From assembly GCF_024508235.1 (NCBI RefSeq), contig NZ_CP101943.1, forward strand, positions 1,488,001-1,552,000: 64,000 bases of DNA. The letters run 5' to 3'. The notes beneath the pieces were generated by a model, which searched no databases, had not been told where the DNA came from, and was given only the letters and a program-made list of their open reading frames with translations. The position numbers and the translations under genes were made by a program. Below are positions 15,139 to 45,624 of this stretch, piece by piece; positions within the stretch are counted from its first letter, which is position 1, and every line of letters begins with the position of its first letter. This DNA comes from Halococcus qingdaonensis (lineage in GTDB: Archaea; Halobacteriota; Halobacteria; Halobacteriales; Halococcaceae).

Positions 15139-16149
15139 ATGACTGCAGGCAGAACCGTCGGCGTCTGTGTGGTCGTTTTCGCGCTGCTCGCGGCGGGCGT
15201 CGCCGGCACCGCGAGCGCACAGAGCGCGCCGACGCCGATCGACTCGTGTCGGACGATCGCCGACGACGGCGAGTATGTGCTCACCGCCGACATCGCGAAC
15301 AGCTCCCAGTCGACGTGCATCCAGATCCTGTCGAGCGACGTCACCTTCGACGGTGGCGGCCACACGATCGGGGGCGCGAACGCCAACGATAGCGTCGGTG
15401 TGAAGGTGAACAACTCGCTGACGAGCCTCTCGAACGTCACCGTCAGAAACGTCTCGACGACCGGCTGGACGACCGGCGTCCAGTATCTCGATGTCGCGAA
15501 CGGCAGCATCGAGGACGTCACCGCGAACGGCAACGACCGCCACGGCATCCGCCTGCGCGCCGCGAACGACGCACGCGTCGAGAACGTCACCGCGACCGAC
15601 AACGGCCGCTGGAGCCTCTACACCGTCGGCAACACGACCGTCACCGGCACTGGCTTCGCGACGGGCTCGACGGACAACGCCTCGTTCACCGCTAGCGACG
15701 TCGCGCTCACGGGCGTCGGCTCGCCGCCGGGCGGGCTCGACAACCGCTCGACGGTCGGCCAGCGCCTCGGCGCGGTCGCCACGGGCGACAACAGCTCGCT
15801 CCGGCTCGGCATCGGCTACGACGAGGCGAACGTGACGCGCGCGAACGTGACCGAGAACAGCCTCCGGATGTGGCGCTTCGAGGGCAACTGGAGCCAGCCC
15901 GACGGCGTGAACTTCGTCAACATCGAGCAGGACCGCGTCGTCGCCGAGGTGGAGAACGTCGACAACGCGAGCGTGCTCGCCCCGGTCGGCGACGTCCAGA
16001 CGCCGACGCCGACACCGACTCCGACCGCCACGGCGACCGAGGCAGCCGCCAACACGACGAGCAGTTCCAACGGACCGGGCTTCGGGATCGGACTCGCGCT
16101 CGTCGCGGTTCTCGCGAGCGCGTTCGTCCTCCTGCGCCGGGATCAGTAG
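15139..16149 (+). CDS. NosD-like right-handed beta-helix surface protein with PGF-CTERM
   Basis: 336 residues. A signal peptide (GVCVVVFALLAAGVAGTASA) is followed by SCRTIADDGEYVLTADI and parallel beta-helix repeats (VTFDGGGHTIGG, VTVRNVSTTGWTTGV, IEDVTANGNDRHGIRLR), then a Thr/Pro/Ala stalk from about residue 285 and a C-terminal GPGFGIGLALVAVLASA helix ending in RR. That tail is the PGF-CTERM signal cut and lipid-anchored by archaeosortase A, so the mature protein sits outside the cell. Several N-x-S/T sites suggest N-glycosylation. Ligand unknown. A paralogue lies at 18428-19732. Confidence 0.85.
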   Translation: MTAGRTVGVCVVVFALLAAGVAGTASAQSAPTPIDSCRTIADDGEYVLTADIANSSQSTCIQILSSDVTFDGGGHTIGGANANDSVGVKVNNSLTSLSNVTVRNVSTTGWTTGVQYLDVANGSIEDVTANGNDRHGIRLRAANDARVENVTATDNGRWSLYTVGNTTVTGTGFATGSTDNASFTASDVALTGVGSPPGGLDNRSTVGQRLGAVATGDNSSLRLGIGYDEANVTRANVTENSLRMWRFEGNWSQPDGVNFVNIEQDRVVAEVENVDNASVLAPVGDVQTPTPTPTPTATATEAAANTTSSSNGPGFGIGLALVAVLASAFVLLRRDQ

Positions 16150-18427: not shown

Positions 18428-19732
18428 GTGTCGAACAGACGAGCGATAGTCGCAATTCTCGTCGTCGTGGCGCTCGGGAGTGCCACGGCGTCGGTCGGAA
18501 TCGCCGGCGCGCAATCGACCACCGGCATCGACTCGTGTACGACGATCGACTCGTCGGGATCGTACACGCTCACGTCGAATCTCTCGACGGAGTCGGACGA
18601 CTGCCTCCGGATCACGGCGAGTCACGTCACCCTCGACGGGAACGGTCACGGGGTCGACGGCGGCAGTTCCGGCGTCGGCGTCGTGGTCACGGGCCCCGAA
18701 CGACTCTCGGACGTCACGGTTCGGGGAATGCACACGGAGGGGTTCACCCGCGGCATCCTCTTTCGGAACGTCGACAGCGGAACGATCGCGGACAGCACCG
18801 CGATCGGCGCGACCGAGGGGATCACGCTGCTCTCGACCGACGACACCACCGTGACGGAAAACACCGTTCGGGAGAACGCCCTCGGGATCGAACTTCGAAA
18901 AGCGAGCGACAACACGATCGCCGACAACACCGCGAACGACAACAAGTACGGCCTCCACATCGAGCGCGCGAGCATCGGCAATCGCTTCGTGAACGACACG
19001 GCGACGGGGAACTCGCTTTGGGATTTTTACTCCGATCGCTTCGATCCAGGAACCGATTCACAGACCACGGTGAAAAACCTCGACATGGGTGCGGTGACGG
19101 CCGATCTCTCGGGGACGAACGTCGGCGTACACGCACAGGGCGAGCCCGACAGCGCTCCGTCCGGCCGAACCGCCGTCGGGACAGCCGTCAGAACCACCGA
19201 TTACGGTGAGGGATCGAACCTCTCACTCTCGCTGCATTACGACGACGCAAGTGGTGTGGACGAGTCCTCGCTGGCACTCTGGAGCAGTCCCAACGGCGAC
19301 TCCTGGTCGAAGCTCGACGGCTCGACGGTGAACACCGAGGCGAACACCGTCTCGGCCGACGGCGTTCCCCATCCCGCGACGATCGGAGTCTTCGGTCGCT
19401 CGGAGAACGGAACGTCGAACGCTACAGCAGCCGCACCGCAGACCGCCACGGCGACGGCAACGCCGACCACGACGACGGCAGCCACCGCGACTGCAACGGC
19501 CACGTCGACCACAACGACCGCCGCAACCGCAACGCCAGGGACGGCATCGACGACGGATCCCGAGGCGACATCCATCGCCGCGGCTACGACGGCCGTGGCG
19601 AACGCCAGCGAGACGAGCGCGAACGGAACGACGACCTCATCGACCACCGGTCCGGGATTCGGTCCCGTTGGTGGACTGCTTGCGCTGTGTGTGGCCGGTT
19701 TGCTCGCCGTTCGGTTCGGGCGGCGTCGCTGA
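18428..19732 (+). CDS. NosD-like beta-helix surface protein with PGF-CTERM (paralogue)
   Basis: 434 residues, GTG start. Signal peptide (AIVAILVVVALGSATASVG), then a domain that begins STTGIDSCTTIDSSGSYTL like its paralogue at 15139, beta-helix repeats (HVTLDGNGHGVDGG, DTTVTENTVRENALGIEL, DNTIADNTANDNKYGLHI), a long Thr/Ala-rich stalk (about residues 338-405) and a C-terminal GPGFGPVGGLLALCVAGLLA helix with RRR. This is an archaeosortase-anchored exoprotein. It sits between secE and ftsZ, two genes that are usually neighbours. Confidence 0.85.
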   Translation: MSNRRAIVAILVVVALGSATASVGIAGAQSTTGIDSCTTIDSSGSYTLTSNLSTESDDCLRITASHVTLDGNGHGVDGGSSGVGVVVTGPERLSDVTVRGMHTEGFTRGILFRNVDSGTIADSTAIGATEGITLLSTDDTTVTENTVRENALGIELRKASDNTIADNTANDNKYGLHIERASIGNRFVNDTATGNSLWDFYSDRFDPGTDSQTTVKNLDMGAVTADLSGTNVGVHAQGEPDSAPSGRTAVGTAVRTTDYGEGSNLSLSLHYDDASGVDESSLALWSSPNGDSWSKLDGSTVNTEANTVSADGVPHPATIGVFGRSENGTSNATAAAPQTATATATPTTTTAATATATATSTTTTAATATPGTASTTDPEATSIAAATTAVANASETSANGTTTSSTTGPGFGPVGGLLALCVAGLLAVRFGRRR

Positions 19733-35817: not shown

Positions 35818-37350
35818 TTACTGCTCGTCTCGTTTGTCGTCTACACTGGATGATGGTTCCGTCTCGGACGGTTCCTCGGCTCCGGTCGACGTCTCTTCGT
35901 GTTCTTCCATTGCCTCAGAACCATCCCGTCGCACGGTCGATCGGCCGATTGCCGACCCGATGGCGGACTGGAGTCGGTCGATCATCCTCGACGGAGCGCC
36001 CGATCGTTCGTCGGTAGCGGAGTCGGGATCGGGTCGTCCCTCATCCACAGCCGGCGGGCCGGAGAGTTCAACGACTGCGGTCGGTTGTACCTCTCCGTCG
36101 TCCCTATCAGCCGATTTCGCAGGTGTACTTGCGGTCGCGTCCATACCGTCGCCCGTGCTCGCGTTCGATGGGATTTCACCGTCGCCACGACCGTCGAGTG
36201 TGGATTTTGACGCATCGGTCGTCCAATCGGGGACGAACCGATACCGAACGTCGCCGTCGAGGACAACGTACGTGCCGGTGTCGCCGTCCTCGACGATGCG
36301 TCGATCGGAGTCGATGGCGACATCGACCAACCCTTCCAACGAATCGACCGTGATCACGGTTCGGTCGTCCTCGGCGGGCACCGTTCCGGTCGTGATCCAC
36401 CCCGCGAACTCGGAGCGGAGCGTCGCGCGCTGTATCTCGGCGCGATCGGATTGGGACACCTCAAACCAGTCGTTCGCTCGGCCATAGAGGAGGCCAGCCA
36501 GCGCGACCAGCGGAGCGAACAGTCCGGCGAGCGAGGCAAAAACCACCAGCGATCCGTAGTCGTTTTCGACCGTCATCGGGCGTGTGACGCTGAACTGCGT
36601 CGTCGCCGGTGTTTCCGGGGGATAGACGGCGTAATATCCCTGTGAGCTGTTGATCGGCAACGTGTAGTCGAACGACCGACCCACGCGCTCCCCGGCCACG
36701 GTCCCGTTGACCCGCACCGTGACGGCGATCGACGTTCGATCGTCGGACACGCGAGAGATCGGCCCAAGCGCCTGATCGATGGCTCGGGTCCGCTCTCGTA
36801 TGTCACTGACGTCGACCGAAAACGTGGTGTTCGCCGTGCCATCCGCCCCGACCCGCGTTCGGTCAGTCGTGAGCGGTGCCGTGAGCTCCCACAATCGTCG
36901 TTCGGACCGGTTTCGTGGTCTCGATTCATTGCCGGCAACGGGTTGGCTTCGGACTCCGGACCGGCCGCCGGTTCCGGACCTGGTCTGGACGGCGTAGTTG
37001 ACGAGCGTCGCCTGCGTCGTCACCACCGCGTTTTCGACCGGCCCCACGACCCGAAACCGGAATCGACCGTCCAACACCGGCATCGGGTTCGTGAAGTAAA
37101 AGCGCTGACCGGCGCGCACCGCTCCGCGTTCGGAGATGGGCGTCTCGTTGACGACCGCTGCGCTGTGGTTGAAGTTACCGGTGACGCCCCACGATGCGAC
37201 GTCGCGCTGTTCGACGTGCGTGCCTGGAGCGGCCGCGGTGGTGTACGTCGCCCACGCGCCGCCGGCTGCAACGACGGCGAGCACGAGCACGATCGCAAGG
37301 AAATGCTCGTCGAGCAGTATCTTGATCCGTGTTCGTCGATCTGAGGTCAT
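35818..37350 (-). CDS. DUF5305 membrane-anchored exoprotein
   Basis: 510 residues. An N-terminal anchor (LAIVLVLAVVAAGGAWATYT), a large outside domain with N-glycosylation sites (about residues 45-270, including RFYFTNPMPVLDGRFRFRV and YTLPINSSQGYYAVYP), a second membrane helix (VVFASLAGLFAPLVALAGLL) and an acidic cytoplasmic tail containing a WEVSQ-like start and YRFVPDW. I recall this as DUF5305, regularly beside a dedicated signal peptidase in haloarchaea. Function unknown. Last gene of the 39830-35818 operon, 8 bases after the signal peptidase. Confidence 0.78.
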   Translation of the reverse strand: MTSDRRTRIKILLDEHFLAIVLVLAVVAAGGAWATYTTAAAPGTHVEQRDVASWGVTGNFNHSAAVVNETPISERGAVRAGQRFYFTNPMPVLDGRFRFRVVGPVENAVVTTQATLVNYAVQTRSGTGGRSGVRSQPVAGNESRPRNRSERRLWELTAPLTTDRTRVGADGTANTTFSVDVSDIRERTRAIDQALGPISRVSDDRTSIAVTVRVNGTVAGERVGRSFDYTLPINSSQGYYAVYPPETPATTQFSVTRPMTVENDYGSLVVFASLAGLFAPLVALAGLLYGRANDWFEVSQSDRAEIQRATLRSEFAGWITTGTVPAEDDRTVITVDSLEGLVDVAIDSDRRIVEDGDTGTYVVLDGDVRYRFVPDWTTDASKSTLDGRGDGEIPSNASTGDGMDATASTPAKSADRDDGEVQPTAVVELSGPPAVDEGRPDPDSATDERSGAPSRMIDRLQSAIGSAIGRSTVRRDGSEAMEEHEETSTGAEEPSETEPSSSVDDKRDEQ

Positions 37351-37358
37351 CGCTTGTA

Positions 37359-38534
37359 TCACCTGAGAAACCGCTTGATGCGGCGCACGATCGGATTCCG
37401 ATTCGTGTCTGTCCTGATCGTTCCGCGACCGACGATCGGTACAGCGACTGCGACGAAGCCACCGAGAACCAGCGCATCGATGACCACGACGGGAAGCCAT
37501 GGATGGACGAGATAGAGCCCATGAATCCACGACTGCGGCAGGACGGCGAGATATCGATGCTCGACGACGTAGCGCGGGTAGTAGCCGGTCGTCGGTGGGA
37601 CGGAGAGTTCAACCCCGACGGTCGCCCGTTCGCCGGGTTCGACGAGAACACCATCACCCGGCGTGTCGACGCCGGTGCTGGCTGGATCGACGTACGCCAC
37701 GATGGGGACGACACCGTCGTTCGGAACGCTGTAATCGAGTCGTTCGGACTGTCCCGCGGGAACGATCGTCGCTTCCGGCGAGTCCTGCTCGGCGCTGACG
37801 ACGCCGAACTCCTGCACCCCGCCGGCGACGGTCATCGTCACAGTCAGCGATGCGACGAGGAGACATCCAAGCACGAGCGCGATCCAGAGCCTCGGGATTC
37901 GTCGCGGGAGAAAGCCACCACGTCTACGGCTGCGACGTCGGGAACGCCGTCGCGATCCGGAGCCACGCCGCTCTGCGACAACGCTGCCCGCGTAGAGCAC
38001 CCCACCCACACCGAGCAGTAGATAGGCCAGTCCACGCGTCCCGAGCAGCGACCGCATGCCCAGTTTGATCGCCAGCCACCGCTGCGCGCCCGTCATCGCG
38101 TCGCGAATGGCTGTAAGCGCTGTCCCGAGAGACGGGATCACGACCGGCCCACCACCGACCGAAACGGCCTGTCCGACGACCTGTACGGGCTTGACCGGCG
38201 GCTCACCGCCCGATTGGTCGGTAAAGGGGTTGTTATCCCCCTTCGTGAGGAACCCCTGTTCGGTCTCGCCGACCACGCGATGTGTCGTGAGCCCGCCTTT
38301 CCCGCCGTGGAGCGTCTTGGCGTTGAAGACGACGATGTCACCCTTCTCGACCGATCCAGCGACCACGGATGGAAGCACGAGATAGCCGTCACCGGTCGCG
38401 ATCGTCGGGGCCATGCTGTCGCTGGTGACATAGGTTACCAACACCGGCTGGCCGATGAGCTGTCCCGCGACGATAGCCACGAGAACGAGAACGACGATCG
38501 CCTGCATCACCGTTCCGAGACGGTACCGAACCAC
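37359..38534 (-). CDS. dedicated signal peptidase I (S26, archaeal Ser-His type) with C-terminal extension
   Basis: 391 residues from GTG 38534; an ATG at 38675 would add 47 Arg-rich residues and overlap the upstream gene by 17 bases. The catalytic Ser40 is in VTSDSMAPTIATGD, His85 in GLTTHRVVGE (in place of the bacterial Lys), and the conserved Asp region is TKGDNNPFTDQSGG at about 98-111. After the catalytic half come three more membrane helices and an outside domain (about residues 245-345), absent from housekeeping SPase I. Its place among secreted proteins suggests a SipW-like specialised peptidase. Confidence 0.85.
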   Translation of the reverse strand: MVRYRLGTVMQAIVVLVLVAIVAGQLIGQPVLVTYVTSDSMAPTIATGDGYLVLPSVVAGSVEKGDIVVFNAKTLHGGKGGLTTHRVVGETEQGFLTKGDNNPFTDQSGGEPPVKPVQVVGQAVSVGGGPVVIPSLGTALTAIRDAMTGAQRWLAIKLGMRSLLGTRGLAYLLLGVGGVLYAGSVVAERRGSGSRRRSRRRSRRRGGFLPRRIPRLWIALVLGCLLVASLTVTMTVAGGVQEFGVVSAEQDSPEATIVPAGQSERLDYSVPNDGVVPIVAYVDPASTGVDTPGDGVLVEPGERATVGVELSVPPTTGYYPRYVVEHRYLAVLPQSWIHGLYLVHPWLPVVVIDALVLGGFVAVAVPIVGRGTIRTDTNRNPIVRRIKRFLR

Positions 38535-38658
38535 TACATCGCCCCCGTCCGACGACCGTCGGTTCGGTCGCCCCGCGTTTCGGCCTCGTTTCGGCTCCGG
38601 ATCGACACCGGCTGCTCGTTTCGTGGACCGAGTCCACCGACGACAGCGCAGTTCGAAC

Positions 38659-39240
38659 TCATGTCGAACCGCCACCCACCCGCTGTGGAGACAGCGGTCG
38701 CGACGGGTTCGACGGTGACGACGACGTTCGGTTCACACACGTAACGGGCATCGTCCGCTCGGCCGTGGCACGGGTGTCCGTCCCCGTGGCTTCGAACGAG
38801 ATCGTCACCGTACCGTGCGACACGCCCCCACAGTCGACGGTGGCCATCAGACTCGTGCGTGCGCCGGATTCGAGGGGAAGGTCCCGCACGTGGATATCGC
38901 TCACGGCTACTCCCCTAGATGTTTTCGATACGCTGGAATCGATGGTATCGAGCTCCGCCGGGAAGTAGTTCGTCACCGCCCCGAGAACGACCGTGGACGA
39001 CGCCGTTCGTCCCTCGTGGGGACGAGCCGTGTTCGTACCCACCCCGTCGTTGCTCCCGTTGGTGGCCACCGTCGCCCCGGACGCCGAAATGCCGAGATAC
39101 GAGCTCGATTCCCCACCAACGCCGACGAACAGCTGTCGGTTCGCCTCGACTGTGCTGAACGCGCCGACGCCCGCGGTCGAGAGCACCAGCCCACCGACGA
39201 TGAGCACCACACCGACGTATTTCACCCATGTGCGGCTCAT
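38659..39240 (-). CDS. secreted TasA/DUF1102-like protein
   Basis: 193 residues. The N terminus YVGVVLIVGGLVLSTAGVGAFSTVEA is a signal sequence of the kind met in SipW-dependent exoproteins, followed by a beta-rich body (RQLFVGVGGESSSYLGIS; AVTNYFPAELDTIDSS; TVTISFEATG) without stalk or PGF-CTERM. I infer a fibre- or matrix-type subunit like TasA/camelysin, mainly from this layout and from the adjacent signal peptidase. ATGA overlap with the regulator gene before it. Confidence 0.6.
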   Translation of the reverse strand: MSRTWVKYVGVVLIVGGLVLSTAGVGAFSTVEANRQLFVGVGGESSSYLGISASGATVATNGSNDGVGTNTARPHEGRTASSTVVLGAVTNYFPAELDTIDSSVSKTSRGVAVSDIHVRDLPLESGARTSLMATVDCGGVSHGTVTISFEATGTDTRATAERTMPVTCVNRTSSSPSNPSRPLSPQRVGGGST

Positions 39241-39830
39241 GGGTCTCGATCCACCTCCGGCGGGACGTCCGCGCGATCGACTCGCATCAAATGCGATTGG
39301 TAGGTGTGGACGGCCGCGGAGAGCGTGAGCGTGAGTCCGATGAGTGCCGCCAAGCCGAGGTTCGGAATCGTCACGAAGAAATCACCGCCGACCGCCACGA
39401 GACCGACCAGGACGCAGCTCAACACACCGATTCCGAGATAGTAGCTGCTCCATGGGATATCGCGGTCGGCAACGATTTCCAGATAGAGATCGAGCGTCCG
39501 CGCTCTCTCGGTCGCTTCGACCACACCGCGATCGGCCTCGAACTCGATGACCCCTGCCTCGGCGAGCGTCGGGAGATGGGTCTGCTGCAGCGCGGTGTAC
39601 GTTCGTTTGCGCTGTTGATAGGCCACCCGCTCGACGGTCGTGCCGTTCTCCCACGCAGCGATCTGCTCCGCAAGCTCACCGAGCTCCGTCCGTCCTTCGT
39701 GTTTGAGATATCTGAGCACCCATCGGCGTCGCTGACTGCCGAGAAGCTGGAACCGTTCGTCCCGCGTCAGTTCTCCTTCGTTTCTCGCCGATGTGTCGTC
39801 AGATCTCGCCTGCACGCGTTGTCCGTTCAT
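39237..39830 (-). CDS. DUF7344-type HTH regulator with two C-terminal membrane helices
   Basis: 197 residues from ATG 39830. RDERFQLLGSQRRRWVLRYL and the segment TELGELAEQIAAWENG are the DUF7344 winged-helix domain of haloarchaea; YTALQQTHLPTLAEAGVIEF completes the wing, and two helices (about 145-185) anchor it in the membrane. First gene of the four-gene operon ending at 35818, hence the likely local regulator. A TATA-like CTATAAAT (minus strand, near 39880) lies about 50 bases upstream of the ATG. Confidence 0.75.
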   Translation of the reverse strand: MNGQRVQARSDDTSARNEGELTRDERFQLLGSQRRRWVLRYLKHEGRTELGELAEQIAAWENGTTVERVAYQQRKRTYTALQQTHLPTLAEAGVIEFEADRGVVEATERARTLDLYLEIVADRDIPWSSYYLGIGVLSCVLVGLVAVGGDFFVTIPNLGLAALIGLTLTLSAAVHTYQSHLMRVDRADVPPEVDRDP

Positions 39831-40263
39831 ATGTATGGATGCGACTCGTCTTTCGAACTGTTCCCGACACCTCTTCATTTATAGCGAGTGTGATTCGACG
39901 ATTTTTGAGTATCATATTAAATTTTCCGATAGTAGTATTGTATTTCCAATCGTTGCGACGCAGATGGAACGCATCAAGCCCTGCTTGATTGATGTCGGGC
40001 CGAGCGTGATGGTCCATCAAGCGGGCCAATACTACGTGGGTAGCGCTGGAGGTGCTGGCTGTAGGATGATTAAATCGGGCCGACTATCGCGTCTTCCGAG
40101 CAATATCAGGCAAAAATACTGAATGAACTCCCCGGTAAGCTGATCGACACCGATAGTGGGTCGACGCCCGCAGGCAGATGATGAGATAACTAATATTAGG
40201 AGACATAGGTTTTAACCGTGAAGAATCCAGTACTGTCCCGAAGTCGTGCACCAAGGGTAGCGC
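39831..40263. other. 433-base non-coding region between the two surface operons
   Basis: AT-rich compared with its neighbours. It holds the promoter of the regulator gene near 39880, poly-T/A patches (39900-39950), and an inverted repeat ATCAAGC-CCT-GCTTGAT near 39972-39988. The short frames present have no recognisable similarity. No gene is called. Confidence 0.5.
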
Positions 40264-41898
40264 TCAGGCATCTCCGTACGTATCCGACGTTGCACGAACC
40301 GCGTCGGGATAGTACGCGCTCAGAACCCGTCGCAGCGTCGCGATCACCTCCTGCGAACGCTTATCGCCCTCCGCCGCAGCGTCTTCCGCCCGCTCGACGG
40401 TCTCGCGTGGGAGGCTGATGGTCATGCTTCGATGGACGAATTCCCTGTCGGCATCATCAGGCGTCTCACCATCCATCGCGGCCAGATCCAGTCCGTCGAT
40501 GGCGGCAAGTGCTTCGACAGCGCTCCGTCGCTCCGCCGAATCGTCCGCCGAGAGATCGATTTCGAGTGTCCGCCACTCCACCGGGATCCCGTACGCTCGC
40601 ATATCCACCCCGTGTCGACTGACAGCCATCCGAATCCGCGCCAGTTCCTGTTGCAACGCGCTGACGTCGCTGTCGTCCGAGGTCCGGGATCGTCCAGCGG
40701 CGACCCATCCAATGACGAGTACCGCGACGATGCTACCGATGGCGAAGAGTCCGACGAGACCGCCGCTTCCGCTACCAGCGCCGGAATCGTCACCGCTTGC
40801 CCCTGCTTCGCCACCGGATCGGTCGGTCGTTGCTCGCCGCCCAACGCCGCTTGCGCTGGTCGGTTCGAGCATTGCCGTCGTTGGTGGCCGTTCGGGAGAT
40901 GCCACTGCCGTCTCATTCCCGGGAGTGCCAGTGTTGTTGACCCGAACGCGTGTGACGAGAGGGACACCGCTCTCGTTCAGATACGGGGTGTCGGTCCCGT
41001 GCGATAGGTTCCGGAAGTCGAACTCCCCGTTTCTGTTCGTGTCACGATAGAGACTTACGTACAGCCGTTCGGATTCGTTGGGTCGGTATCGATCGAAATT
41101 GCGACCCGGAACGTCGTAGAGTTCGATGGTGATGTTTCGGAACGTGCCGATCCGTACTCGCTTTGTCCTGCCGATGATCGTCGCCGTGGACGGCGAGGAG
41201 ACGTCATAGCTGCTGTTGTGAACGACGATCCAGCTATAGATCGGGAGTCTGACCGAATCGACGGTGATCCGGTCGTTGATCGCCGTCTGATTTTCGATCG
41301 TGACCGATGGACTCGTCGGTCGGTCGTCGAACGCGTTGCCGACACCCGATCGCGGAAGTCGTTGGATCGTCGCGACCCCGCTGTCGGAGACGGGCGTTCC
41401 ATTGACACCGAATGCAGTATCGACGAAACCGTTCGCGCTCGCGTAATCGAAGTTCCCGTTCCCGTTGCTATCCCGGTGCACGACGGCGGTGAGCGTCTGG
41501 TTCGCTTCGAGCAGTCGTCGAAACACGACCGTGACGTTCTCGTGTTTCCCGGCATCGAGAAACGACGAAACCCCGACGATGCTCGTGCCGGATTCGTTGC
41601 CGGTCGATCGATACGAGCGATTGTGTATCGTCACGAAACCGGGCTCGGGAAGCGTGACCGAACGTATCCGTGCGGTCGTTCCAGTGGTGGTTTGATTGTC
41701 GAGCATGACCGAGACGTTCGATGCGACACTATCGTTCTGACTCCCGGTGGCGACGCCAGTACCGTTCTGCTGGAACTGTCGAGCATCGCCGATCGTGGCG
41801 TCTACATCGCCCACCGGATCGAGAGCAGGAAGCGACACGATCCCGATGGAGAGACAGACGACCGCGACCAACACGACTCGACTGTGACGTTCAAACAT
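40264..41898 (-). CDS. DUF7282 surface glycoprotein with cytoplasmic C-terminal domain
   Basis: 544 residues. Signal sequence (VVLVAVVCLSIGIVSLPAL), then two DUF7282 repeats: VTLPEPGFVTIHNRSY ... AVVHRDSNGNGNFDYA and VRLPIYSWIVVHNSSY ... SLYRDTNRNGEFDF, each ending in a Ca-binding-like DxNxxGxxD loop. A Gly/Ser linker leads to one membrane helix (about 388-408) and a cytoplasmic tail of about 130 residues containing YGIPVEWRTLEIDL and MTISLPRETVERAEDAA. Many N-x-S/T sites. Function unknown; the topology could pass signals inward. Confidence 0.7.
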   Translation of the reverse strand: MFERHSRVVLVAVVCLSIGIVSLPALDPVGDVDATIGDARQFQQNGTGVATGSQNDSVASNVSVMLDNQTTTGTTARIRSVTLPEPGFVTIHNRSYRSTGNESGTSIVGVSSFLDAGKHENVTVVFRRLLEANQTLTAVVHRDSNGNGNFDYASANGFVDTAFGVNGTPVSDSGVATIQRLPRSGVGNAFDDRPTSPSVTIENQTAINDRITVDSVRLPIYSWIVVHNSSYDVSSPSTATIIGRTKRVRIGTFRNITIELYDVPGRNFDRYRPNESERLYVSLYRDTNRNGEFDFRNLSHGTDTPYLNESGVPLVTRVRVNNTGTPGNETAVASPERPPTTAMLEPTSASGVGRRATTDRSGGEAGASGDDSGAGSGSGGLVGLFAIGSIVAVLVIGWVAAGRSRTSDDSDVSALQQELARIRMAVSRHGVDMRAYGIPVEWRTLEIDLSADDSAERRSAVEALAAIDGLDLAAMDGETPDDADREFVHRSMTISLPRETVERAEDAAAEGDKRSQEVIATLRRVLSAYYPDAVRATSDTYGDA

Positions 41899-42011
41899 GG
41901 CAACTCACCAGGACATGACGCTCGGAGCCAGCGTATTGAGCCATGTCCAGCAGCGTATTAATTCGTCAAACGCGAACTGAGATATAATGGTTTCGGATCG
42001 TTCGAACGCCG

Positions 42012-43835
42012 TTAACCGCTTACCGACGACTCGACGGTCGTGTTCGTTACCGTGGACGACGAGTTCACCGTCGTGGATTCGGTGGATGATCCGGTCGTTT
42101 CCGTGTCGGATGGCCGATTGGCCGCCGTGTTCGTCGTGGCAGGTCCGGACGGGAACGGTGTCCCATTGTCGGTCGTCGGTGTCGGAGTGGGCGTTGCCGT
42201 GTCGGTCGGACCCGGCGTCTCGGTCGGGGTCGGCGTTTCCTGCACAGGGACGACCACCCTCGCGGACTCGCTCACGGGCTCGCCGTTCGCGCCGAGAGCT
42301 GCCATGTCTATCTCTTGACTGTACTGCCCGTTGCCGTCCGTGTCGTCGATGAGGACGGCCGTGAGCGTCTGCACGGAGTCGAGTTGCGGCTCGACATCGA
42401 TCATGACGTTCTCGGTCGTGCCTGTACCGAGTTCCGAGATGCCGATCGGGGTGTCGTCGATCTCGTCGAGACTACTGGCGTTGTAGATCGCCACGAACCC
42501 ACCGTTTTCGTTGTCGGTCGTCGACGCCATCACTTCGACTGACGATCCGTCCTGTGACGGCTGATTACGGAACGTGATACTGGGCTGCTCGTCGTCCGGT
42601 GTTCCCGGCGTCTCGGTCGGCGTTGGCGTCGGGGTCGCGGTCGGTGTGGAAGTCGCCGTCGATGTTGGCGTTGGTGTCGGGGTCGCAGTCGATGTGGAAG
42701 TCGCAGTCGATGTCGGGGTTGCGGTCGGTGTCGATGTCGCGGTTGACGTTTCGGTTCCGACCGATTCCGGAGTGGGCGTTGCTGTTTCGGTCGACTCCGG
42801 CGTCTCGGTCGGTGTCGCGTTCGATCCCGACGTCGTGGTCGATGTCGCAGTCCGTTCTGGGATCTCGGTTGCCGTCGCGGTCTGTTCCGTAACGGCTGTC
42901 GCCGACGCAGTCGCCGTCCTCGGTTCCGTTTCGGTCGTCGGCGGTGTCGAGGTGGTATCGGTCCGGTCTACCGTTTCCGTCGCGACCGTGTCGCTGCTGG
43001 GCGGGAGATCGACGCGGAGCGTGTAGGAACCACCCGGCTCGAAGGTTCGTGTATCGGCCCCGACGAACTCCTGGAGCGGTTCGGTCTCGGGCGACCAGAC
43101 CGGCCCAGGCTTGGTGTAGCTTGCGAGCGTCAGTTCGAACGGCCCACAGCCCTCCGCAACGCTGAACGTCACGTGTGCGATTCCGTCGTCGACTGCGATC
43201 TCCCGGCTCTCGACACACCGTGCGAGCGTCCGATTCGTCGTGAACTCGCCCTCCGAGCGGCGAGTGATCCCATCCATGGCGCTCCCGTGGGCGAAGCGGA
43301 TCAGATTGCCGTTGGTGTAGGTCCCCTCGGGTCCACGGAGGTTCTCGATCGGATCACCGCGCACGAAGTCGATCTGATAGTACGTCGCGTTCGGGTCCGA
43401 ACTCTCGCTCGTACGCTCGTCACCGGACGGTTGGGTTCGATTCGACTGCTGTAGCAACTGTTCGATTCGACTGGCTGCCGCCTGCGAGCTCGCATCGCCA
43501 CCAGTCGCGACCACGACCGTCGCCACGTGGTTCTCGACACTGGCGATCTCCATGCTGCTCGCCCTGATAGCCGCGTCATCGACGGCGTCCACGAGTGAAT
43601 CGCTCAATTGTTCGCGATCGAACGCACCGCGAAACGAGATCGCGAGTCTGAGGCGATCGTTCTTCCGATCGAGAACGCTGACGTTCTCGATACTCATGGG
43701 TTTCGTCTCGCTCGACTGGCTTTCGTTGTCTCGGTGAATCCCATTCTCGCCGTTCGTGGAGACGAACGCACCCGCCCCAACGGTCGACAGAACGAGTCCA
43801 CCAACCACGAGCCATATCACGACTCTGTTGTTCAT
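42012..43835 (-). CDS. large Thr/Pro-rich DUF7282 surface glycoprotein
   Basis: 607 residues. Signal sequence VVGGLVLSTVGAGAF is almost the same as in the secreted protein at 38659-39240. An N-terminal domain (about 45-275) holds IENVSVLDRKNDRLRLAISF and a Cys pair (RCVESRE, VAEGCGPF). A stalk of about 120 residues of T-P/T-A/T-S repeats follows, then one DUF7282 domain (ITFRNQPSQDGSSVEVM ... DTDGNGQYSQEIDM) and a second Thr/Pro/Ser-rich tail. No PGF-CTERM or C-terminal helix, so it is released or held by other means. Heavy O-glycosylation is likely. Confidence 0.68.
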   Translation of the reverse strand: MNNRVVIWLVVGGLVLSTVGAGAFVSTNGENGIHRDNESQSSETKPMSIENVSVLDRKNDRLRLAISFRGAFDREQLSDSLVDAVDDAAIRASSMEIASVENHVATVVVATGGDASSQAAASRIEQLLQQSNRTQPSGDERTSESSDPNATYYQIDFVRGDPIENLRGPEGTYTNGNLIRFAHGSAMDGITRRSEGEFTTNRTLARCVESREIAVDDGIAHVTFSVAEGCGPFELTLASYTKPGPVWSPETEPLQEFVGADTRTFEPGGSYTLRVDLPPSSDTVATETVDRTDTTSTPPTTETEPRTATASATAVTEQTATATEIPERTATSTTTSGSNATPTETPESTETATPTPESVGTETSTATSTPTATPTSTATSTSTATPTPTPTSTATSTPTATPTPTPTETPGTPDDEQPSITFRNQPSQDGSSVEVMASTTDNENGGFVAIYNASSLDEIDDTPIGISELGTGTTENVMIDVEPQLDSVQTLTAVLIDDTDGNGQYSQEIDMAALGANGEPVSESARVVVPVQETPTPTETPGPTDTATPTPTPTTDNGTPFPSGPATTNTAANRPSDTETTGSSTESTTVNSSSTVTNTTVESSVSG

Positions 43836-44055: not shown

Positions 44056-45624
44056 TCACGCGTGGTCTTCGTCGCCACTCACTCGATCCGGCACGTCGTC
44101 GGCTGGATCGTTCGTGGTCGAAACGTCGCGGCGCAGCGCGAGGCTCTCATCGAGCCGTCGGCGGACCGTCTCGCGGAGGGTTGTCGCCTCGCCCGCGTCG
44201 AAATCGACCGCACGTGCGCCGCGATCGGTCACCGACAGCGAGCCGGCGGTATCGATAGCGACGCTCGCGAGCGATCGCCAGCGCTGGAACGGCGTCGCGG
44301 TCTGGATCACCGTCTGAACGCGGTAGGCGGGCACGACGGCGATCGTGCGCCGCCAGAATCCGTTGCGCGTCAGGACGTGTTCCGCTCCCACGTCGTAGCC
44401 ACGACTGCGCCACTTGTAGTGGGCGGCGAACGGGACGAGAGCCAGGGCGAGCAGTGGGACATACCAGAACTCGAGGAGGGCGCTCCAGCCGCCGAGCGAA
44501 CGACCGACGACGGCCGTCGCGAGCCCGGCGCGCAGCGCGTACAGCACGCCCGTGACGAGGGCGATCACGAGCGCGTAGCGGACGGCGTAGCGCCGTCGAG
44601 CGCGGCGAGGTGGACGGGAGAAGCCCGGGTCGTCGAAGGCAAATCCGTCGATCGAGCGCGCGAAGGCGAGCACGCGCTCGCGTTCGGCCAGCGGGATCGC
44701 CGCCTCCGATCCGCCCGAAGGGCCTTCACCGGGTGTGTAACCCGCGGTCTCGACGGCGAGCGAGCCGTAGCCGAGCCGGCGCATCAGGACGTTCTCCCTG
44801 ACGTCGATCTGCTGGATCTTGTCGATCGGGATCGAGCCGTCGTAGCGCGAGAGCAGGCCGCGCTCGTAGCGGAGTTCGTCCCCGAAGCGAGTGAGGCGGA
44901 ACTCGTAGTAGCGCGCGGCGGTCACGGCGGCCGTCCCGATCCAGGAAACGATCGCGAGCGCCGCCCCACGTGGCCCGACGCCGAACGCACCGCTCTCGGC
45001 GAGCAGGTCGGGGATCGAGACGCCAAGGGTGGGGACGGCGAAGAAGAGCACCGGCAGGAGTGCCCGGAGGTCGGGGGCAACCAGCCCCAGCACGGCGAGG
45101 TTCCGGTGTGTGAGCGCGAACAGCAGTTCGCCCTGGGCCTCGCTCTCGCCTTCGTCGGCAGCCGTCGGTTCGTCGCTCGCGCCGCGCTTGCGCCGTCGGA
45201 TGTCGTGCTGGAGGCGTTTGGCCTCCTCGTAGCTCACGTAGCGGAGGTCGGCCTCCGTCTCGCCGCCGCCGGCGGTCTCGATGCCAACAGCTGCGATCGA
45301 GAGCGCGCGCTGGACGATCCCCCGCGAGATATCGACGTTCTGTACCCGCCTGATCGGGATCTCTCGCTCACGCCGCGAAACCACGCCCGAACCGATATCG
45401 AGCGTGTCGGCCGTGAGTTCGTACTCGAATCGGCGATAGTAGAGCAGTTCGTAGCCGACACCGGCGAGGAAGCCACCGATCGTCGCTACGACGGTGAGGG
45501 CGAACCAGCCGGGTACTGCCGCCACCATCGTGGTCGCCACCGTGACGGCAAAGAAGCCGAACGAGCCGAGCTGGACGCCGCGCGGGAGCGCCCGGAAGAC
45601 CAGCGAGAGCGGGTGGAGTTTCAC
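44056..45624 (-). CDS. three-domain bacterial-PH (YdbT-like) membrane protein
   Basis: 522 residues, GTG start overlapping the previous stop (GTGA). Three bPH2 domains are separated by membrane-helix pairs: YELTADTLDIGSGVVSRRER with VQNVDISRGIVQRALSIAAV; LTRFGDELRYERGLLSRYDG with IQQIDVRENVLMRRLGYG; and a third with VLTRNGFWRRTIAVVPAYRVQ. This is the YdbT layout, always paired with a smaller YdbS-like protein, as here. Function unknown; membrane stress or lipid handling has been proposed. Confidence 0.8.
   Translation of the reverse strand: MKLHPLSLVFRALPRGVQLGSFGFFAVTVATTMVAAVPGWFALTVVATIGGFLAGVGYELLYYRRFEYELTADTLDIGSGVVSRREREIPIRRVQNVDISRGIVQRALSIAAVGIETAGGGETEADLRYVSYEEAKRLQHDIRRRKRGASDEPTAADEGESEAQGELLFALTHRNLAVLGLVAPDLRALLPVLFFAVPTLGVSIPDLLAESGAFGVGPRGAALAIVSWIGTAAVTAARYYEFRLTRFGDELRYERGLLSRYDGSIPIDKIQQIDVRENVLMRRLGYGSLAVETAGYTPGEGPSGGSEAAIPLAERERVLAFARSIDGFAFDDPGFSRPPRRARRRYAVRYALVIALVTGVLYALRAGLATAVVGRSLGGWSALLEFWYVPLLALALVPFAAHYKWRSRGYDVGAEHVLTRNGFWRRTIAVVPAYRVQTVIQTATPFQRWRSLASVAIDTAGSLSVTDRGARAVDFDAGEATTLRETVRRRLDESLALRRDVSTTNDPADDVPDRVSGDEDHA

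Follow-up and report, generated by a model that had tools for sequence, protein, structure and literature searches.

All six genes of the cluster were found on the minus strand between 35818 and 43835, where the original prediction had placed them in the 64,000-nt stretch of Halococcus qingdaonensis DNA that was analysed (the window; Table 1). In the order of transcription, the gene for a 607-aa protein is followed by that for a 544-aa protein, by a gap of 385 nt which holds an A/T-rich promoter-like stretch, and then by the genes for an HTH protein, a 193-aa protein, an S26 signal peptidase and a DUF5305 protein. There is a 4-nt overlap between the HTH gene and the 193-aa gene. Pfam and NCBIfam searches identified the DUF7344 HTH protein, the S26/TIGR02228 peptidase, the DUF5305 protein and the two DUF7282 proteins, confirming the families and the common strand of a four-gene operon for an HTH protein, a secreted beta-rich protein, an S26 peptidase and a DUF5305 protein. 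The most likely starts of the last two genes are the GTG at 38534 and the ATG at 37350. The DUF7282 pair was said to follow the operon; it does share the strand, but from the gene order it lies upstream rather than downstream, with the 385-nt gap in between. As claimed, neither the 193-aa nor the 607-aa protein carries a PGF-CTERM, which is present on two other proteins of the window (15139-16149 and 18428-19732). Beside the cluster, at 44056-45624, the window encodes a protein containing three bPH_2 (bacterial PH) stretches.

Table 1. Coordinates of the cluster's genes and features in the window, with the evidence for each
Feature	Position	Strand	Evidence
HTH (DUF7344, PF24035) protein, membrane segments at the C-terminal end; probable taf regulator	39237..39878	-	Pfam 1.5e-30
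193-aa secreted protein, TafC-position subunit, without twin arginine	38659..39240	-	TafC 3.7e-10 (far under cut-off), position, orthologs, AF2 model
Signal core VGGLVLSTAGVGAF of the 193-aa protein	39157..39198	-	
S26 signal peptidase with exodomain, 391 aa from GTG 38534 (most likely start)	37359..38534	-	TIGR02228 1.9e-17; alignment of 33 relatives; AF2 model and PDB comparison
Peptidase exodomain, about residues 236-335, beta-sandwich between two membrane helices	37530..37829	-	Alignment, AF2 model
DUF5305 membrane protein, 510 aa from ATG 37350 (most likely start)	35818..37350	-	PF17231 8.5e-43
544-aa protein with two DUF7282 stretches, membrane helix and cytoplasmic tail	40264..41898	-	PF23951 1.3e-48
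607-aa Thr-rich protein with one DUF7282 domain; possible peptidase client	42012..43835	-	
Signal core VGGLVLSTVGAGAF of the 607-aa protein	43764..43805	-	

The peptidase is the only extended S26 peptidase in its genome. Its closest named relative is that of Halococcus thailandensis (96% identical); the next-closest relatives are from Halocatena and Actinarchaeum (L077 and L078). Ser40 and His85 were invariant across 33 aligned relatives. The C-terminal exodomain had been called unusual, which was refuted by the same alignment, as all 33 relatives carry it. Structure comparison of the AF2 model gave a Z of only about 7 between the exodomain and MSP-type Ig folds, too low to be decisive, and hhalign gave no sign of common ancestry between the exodomain and the subunit domain.

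The haloarchaeal Taf system ("tafi") was described by Galeva et al. (iScience 2025, doi 10.1016/j.isci.2025.111793, as cited in PMC12687288); the citing article names it Tat-fimbriae, with TafA as its core component. NCBIfam holds models for TafA (NF052520), TafC (NF052521) and TafE (NF052522). The TafC model, which exceeds its curated cut-off in only 16 of 392 genomes, matched the 193-aa protein at 39.5 bits against a cut-off of 410. The 193-aa gene lies directly 3' of the HTH gene, which is the position of TafC, and the proteins at this position in Halocatena and Actinarchaeum are 36% and 29% identical to it. The AF2 model of the protein is Ig-like (mean pLDDT 71, core about 90); its best structural match was a domain of archaeal Fsx1 (Z 10.1), and PapD/Caf1M-type chaperone folds matched near Z 9. 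This fold is of a common kind and sharing it shows no function. The mature part of the protein matched the Tat-fimbrin profile weakly and, beyond the first strand, not above shuffles, so homology of this part to the Tat fimbrins is not claimed from sequence alone. A PHROGs search returned nothing useful. Given the sub-cut-off TafC score and the weak mature-part match, the link to Taf rests on the signal, the gene position and the orthologs.

To place the operon, 13 of the 16 regions with a TafC above the cut-off were compared. The HTH gene adjoins TafC in all 13; the two share a strand in 11 and overlap by 4 nt in nine of these. Every region likewise holds the extended S26 peptidase and another two fimbrins, and DUF5305 was found in 11. 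In the other two regions (L224 and L225), the HTH and TafC genes point towards each other and DUF5305 was undetected at the threshold used. Set against these regions, the window operon is thus the same gene set without the fimbrins. In 40 DUF5305 neighbourhoods of other genomes, genes for HTH and fimbrin-like proteins likewise recurred as a block with the extended S26 peptidase and DUF5305, and DUF5305 was found in 76 of the 87 genera sampled. Among 114 distinct peptidase loci, DUF5305 lies within 4 kb on the same strand in 98 and the HTH gene within 9 kb in 91, while 71 have a fimbrin-family gene directly 3' of the HTH gene. H. thailandensis and Halocatena share the order HTH, TafC-like protein, S26 peptidase, DUF5305, which can also be read in the Actinarchaeum region. 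The window resembles the curated regions in its HTH gene placed directly before the TafC-position gene with the 4-nt overlap, in its extended peptidase and DUF5305 protein, and in the GxGAF..R signal of the fimbrins. In contrast to them, the Halococcus subunits have Sec-like signals without twin arginines, the fimbrins are encoded at a second locus, and the TafC-like protein has half the length and scores far under the TafC cut-off. The HTH and peptidase genes of the window also share one strand, as in 10 of the 91 HTH loci, whereas they are opposite in the other 81.

The second locus was detected with a fimbrin-family profile, which found two more members in the same genome at ~2.044-2.047 Mb (G000:C1:2044420-2046673; L182 8421-10674), 517 kb from the window operon. 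The pair is followed by genes for small membrane proteins, and no S26 peptidase is encoded nearby. The two fimbrins matched TafE at 6.9e-15 and 5.2e-12, under the curated cut-off; the first also matched TafA and is 43% identical to a Halocatena fimbrin that adjoins its own operon. The family profile matched the solved "Pilin" of PDB 9p0a at E 1e-30 over profile positions 1-155, compared with E 0.07 for the 193-aa protein alone, and this pilin has the same kind of signal. The family signal consists of a hydrophobic segment, GxGAF, S/T and then a near-invariant Arg. It had been regarded as unusual, but the same kind is carried by 222 family members in the compared loci, some of which are duplicates.

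Co-occurrence of the signal motif with the extended peptidase had been proposed as a check on the original prediction, and was counted in 293 genomes using DUF5305, the peptidase's neighbour, as its proxy. Fimbrins were present in 206 genomes and DUF5305 in 212; both were found in 202, fimbrins alone in four, DUF5305 alone in 10 and neither in 77. One of the four genomes with fimbrins only does have the extended peptidase. In the Halococcus genome G003, fimbrins were found and the extended peptidase was not; these fimbrins lie at C15:79590-80842, and the contig stops just after them. The tight link of the motif family to the system (202 of 206 fimbrin-bearing genomes) supports in part the dedicated export route that had been proposed. 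A secreted beta-rich subunit served by a dedicated ER-type (Ser/His) S26 peptidase is also supported; the TasA/SipW-like nature ascribed to that route is not. A divergent, compact version of the cluster is present in another Halococcus (G001; L185 6626-10168), in the order fimbrin, shorter exodomain peptidase, 650-aa protein and DUF5305; the 650-aa protein combines malectin and CBM35 domains with a GxDAF-like signal. Collectively, these results suggest that 35818-39878 is very probably that half of a haloarchaeal Taf system which serves regulation and assembly in Halococcus, with the fimbrins encoded at ~2.044 Mb. Against this reading count the low TafC score of the 193-aa protein, the two TafC regions where DUF5305 was undetected and the fimbrins of G003.

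How the subunits are exported was considered from their signals. Neither the 193-aa protein nor the two fimbrins of this genome has an RR, and their signals are hydrophobic. Across the family, mean signal hydropathy was 1.30 for members with twin arginines (n=193) and 2.22 for those without (n=29). The more hydrophobic type includes the window protein, the fimbrins of the same genome and the Halocatena and Actinarchaeum fimbrins; one protein from Actinarchaeum combines an RR with a very hydrophobic segment. With twin arginines missing and the signals more hydrophobic, these subunits are most likely exported by Sec and not by Tat. On a tree of 118 peptidases, where the Sec label of the Halococcus rows was taken in part from genes outside the peptidase locus, the Sec-type loci need a single change, compared with a mean of 6.9 after shuffling, and none of 500 shuffles was as low. 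The clade of Halococcus, Halocatena and Actinarchaeum has full support; a wider Sec-type grouping that adds Halobaculum saliterrae and Halobellus captivus ZY21 has low support (18). The fimbrins of the Halococcus/Halocatena/Actinarchaeum lineage, and perhaps others, thus appear from their sequences to have switched from Tat to Sec. New here are the Sec-like signals of the fimbrins in this lineage and, in Halococcus, the position of the fimbrin genes far from the operon. The lineage of Halocatena and Actinarchaeum is described as a hypha- and spore-former that has lost the archaellum and PilB3-type pili (PMC10067837).

The two DUF7282 glycoproteins were considered as possible parts of the system, and the 607-aa one as a possible client of the peptidase. 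A signal segment common to the 193-aa and 607-aa proteins had been noticed from the sequence, and was borne out: 14 of 20 residues are identical (score 67). In the 42-nt core, nine of 14 third codon positions differ, so this is not a recent copy of DNA. It is quite possible, if somewhat doubtful, that the resemblance arose by convergence in a hydrophobic helix, or by copying long ago, and has no functional meaning. Similar hydrophobic N-termini occur in relatives of the 607-aa protein, for example RVAVWAVVAVLIVS and RAAVWLIVLGVVTSAAGIGAM, and the mature start SxVxAxR is not shared, both of which are consistent with this explanation. However, the score of the pair stands well above that of every other N-terminus compared (the best outside both families reached 48 among 2,080), and BLASTP gave E 4e-4.

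It is rather unlikely that the operon acts with the two DUF7282 proteins as a single surface-assembly unit in which the 607-aa glycoprotein is read by the same peptidase. Such a unit would account for the shared signal core and for the distribution of the GAF form of the 607-aa protein, which was found only in two sister Halococcus species, both with the extended peptidase, while four Halococcus genomes without this peptidase (G002, G004, G005 and G006) have relatives of the protein with no GAF at the N-terminus. However, two sister species amount to a single event, and the relative in G001 also lacks GAF despite the divergent extended-type peptidase of that genome. The family itself is widespread in Halococcus without the peptidase, relatives of the N-terminal domain being present in nine of 10 genomes. 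The 385-nt gap with its promoter-like sequence also separates the DUF7282 pair from the operon, the operons of other genera are without such neighbours, and among the compared loci the 544-aa gene lies beside the operon only in two Halococcus relatives. The pattern would fit recruitment of the 607-aa protein as a possible client of the peptidase, but the GAF form was seen in only two sister species.

The label of a TasA/SipW-like matrix system was not supported. The resemblance to Bacillus TasA/SipW lies in a Ser/His S26 peptidase dedicated to filament subunits and in the Phe at the presumed P2' position; in TasA, residue P2' is Phe and cleavage is by a Ser/His peptidase of its own, and the Ser/His dyad is general to ER-type S26 enzymes (PMC10269814). 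Judged by its sequence, the window peptidase is of this ER type, a trait that is not specific to SipW. The predicted fold, the cluster partners and the family all differ. The 193-aa protein had no match to TIGR04088 at E 1, and the TasA fold was not among the matches listed for its model (Foldseek, VIA; pLDDT 71). A separate TasA-type/SipW-type pair is encoded at 594.3-595.7 kb of the same genome (G000:C1:594338-595687; L187 4339-5688), about 930 kb from the operon: the TasA-type protein has the cognate_SipW signal TIGR04088 and camelysin PF12389, both above cut-off, and the adjoining short S26 peptidase matches SipW at 5.8e-33. The TasA-type protein had no match among PDB sequences. Another DUF7344 HTH gene lies near this pair. 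A true TasA/SipW biofilm matrix system in the window, with the 193-aa protein as TasA-like matrix subunit and the peptidase as SipW ortholog, is therefore very improbable: the Ser/His peptidase with its weak SipW match (6.6e-8), the TasA-like Phe and the beta-rich partner speak for it, but the pair at 594 kb is the better candidate, the 193-aa model is Ig-like and the window cluster is a taf cluster.

Returning to the Taf system, the genes suggest how it may work. The HTH protein would control expression of the taf cluster. The subunits would be exported, in this lineage probably by Sec rather than Tat, and held by their N-terminal hydrophobic segment until the Ser/His peptidase cuts them, by analogy with TasA, before the AF of GxGAF. 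If the cut lies there, a near-invariant Phe falls at the place that matches P2' of TasA. The freed N-terminal strand, SxVxAxRxVxV, might then pair with the following subunit's beta domain, giving a fibre, and the exodomain and DUF5305 protein may hold or guide subunits at the membrane. More speculatively, the peptidase and subunits of one branch of the "Tat" fimbriae (that of Halococcus, Halocatena, Actinarchaeum and perhaps other genera) may have changed jointly from Tat to Sec export, and the Halococcus enzyme may also have gained a further client, a large wall glycoprotein that had acquired a fimbrin cleavage signal; we consider this combined scenario unlikely. Together, these results tie a near-universal but poorly named haloarchaeal block, consisting of the HTH protein, the extended S26 peptidase and DUF5305, to fimbriae, and the genera with Sec-type signals are natural cases for asking if Tat export is truly required for the fibres.
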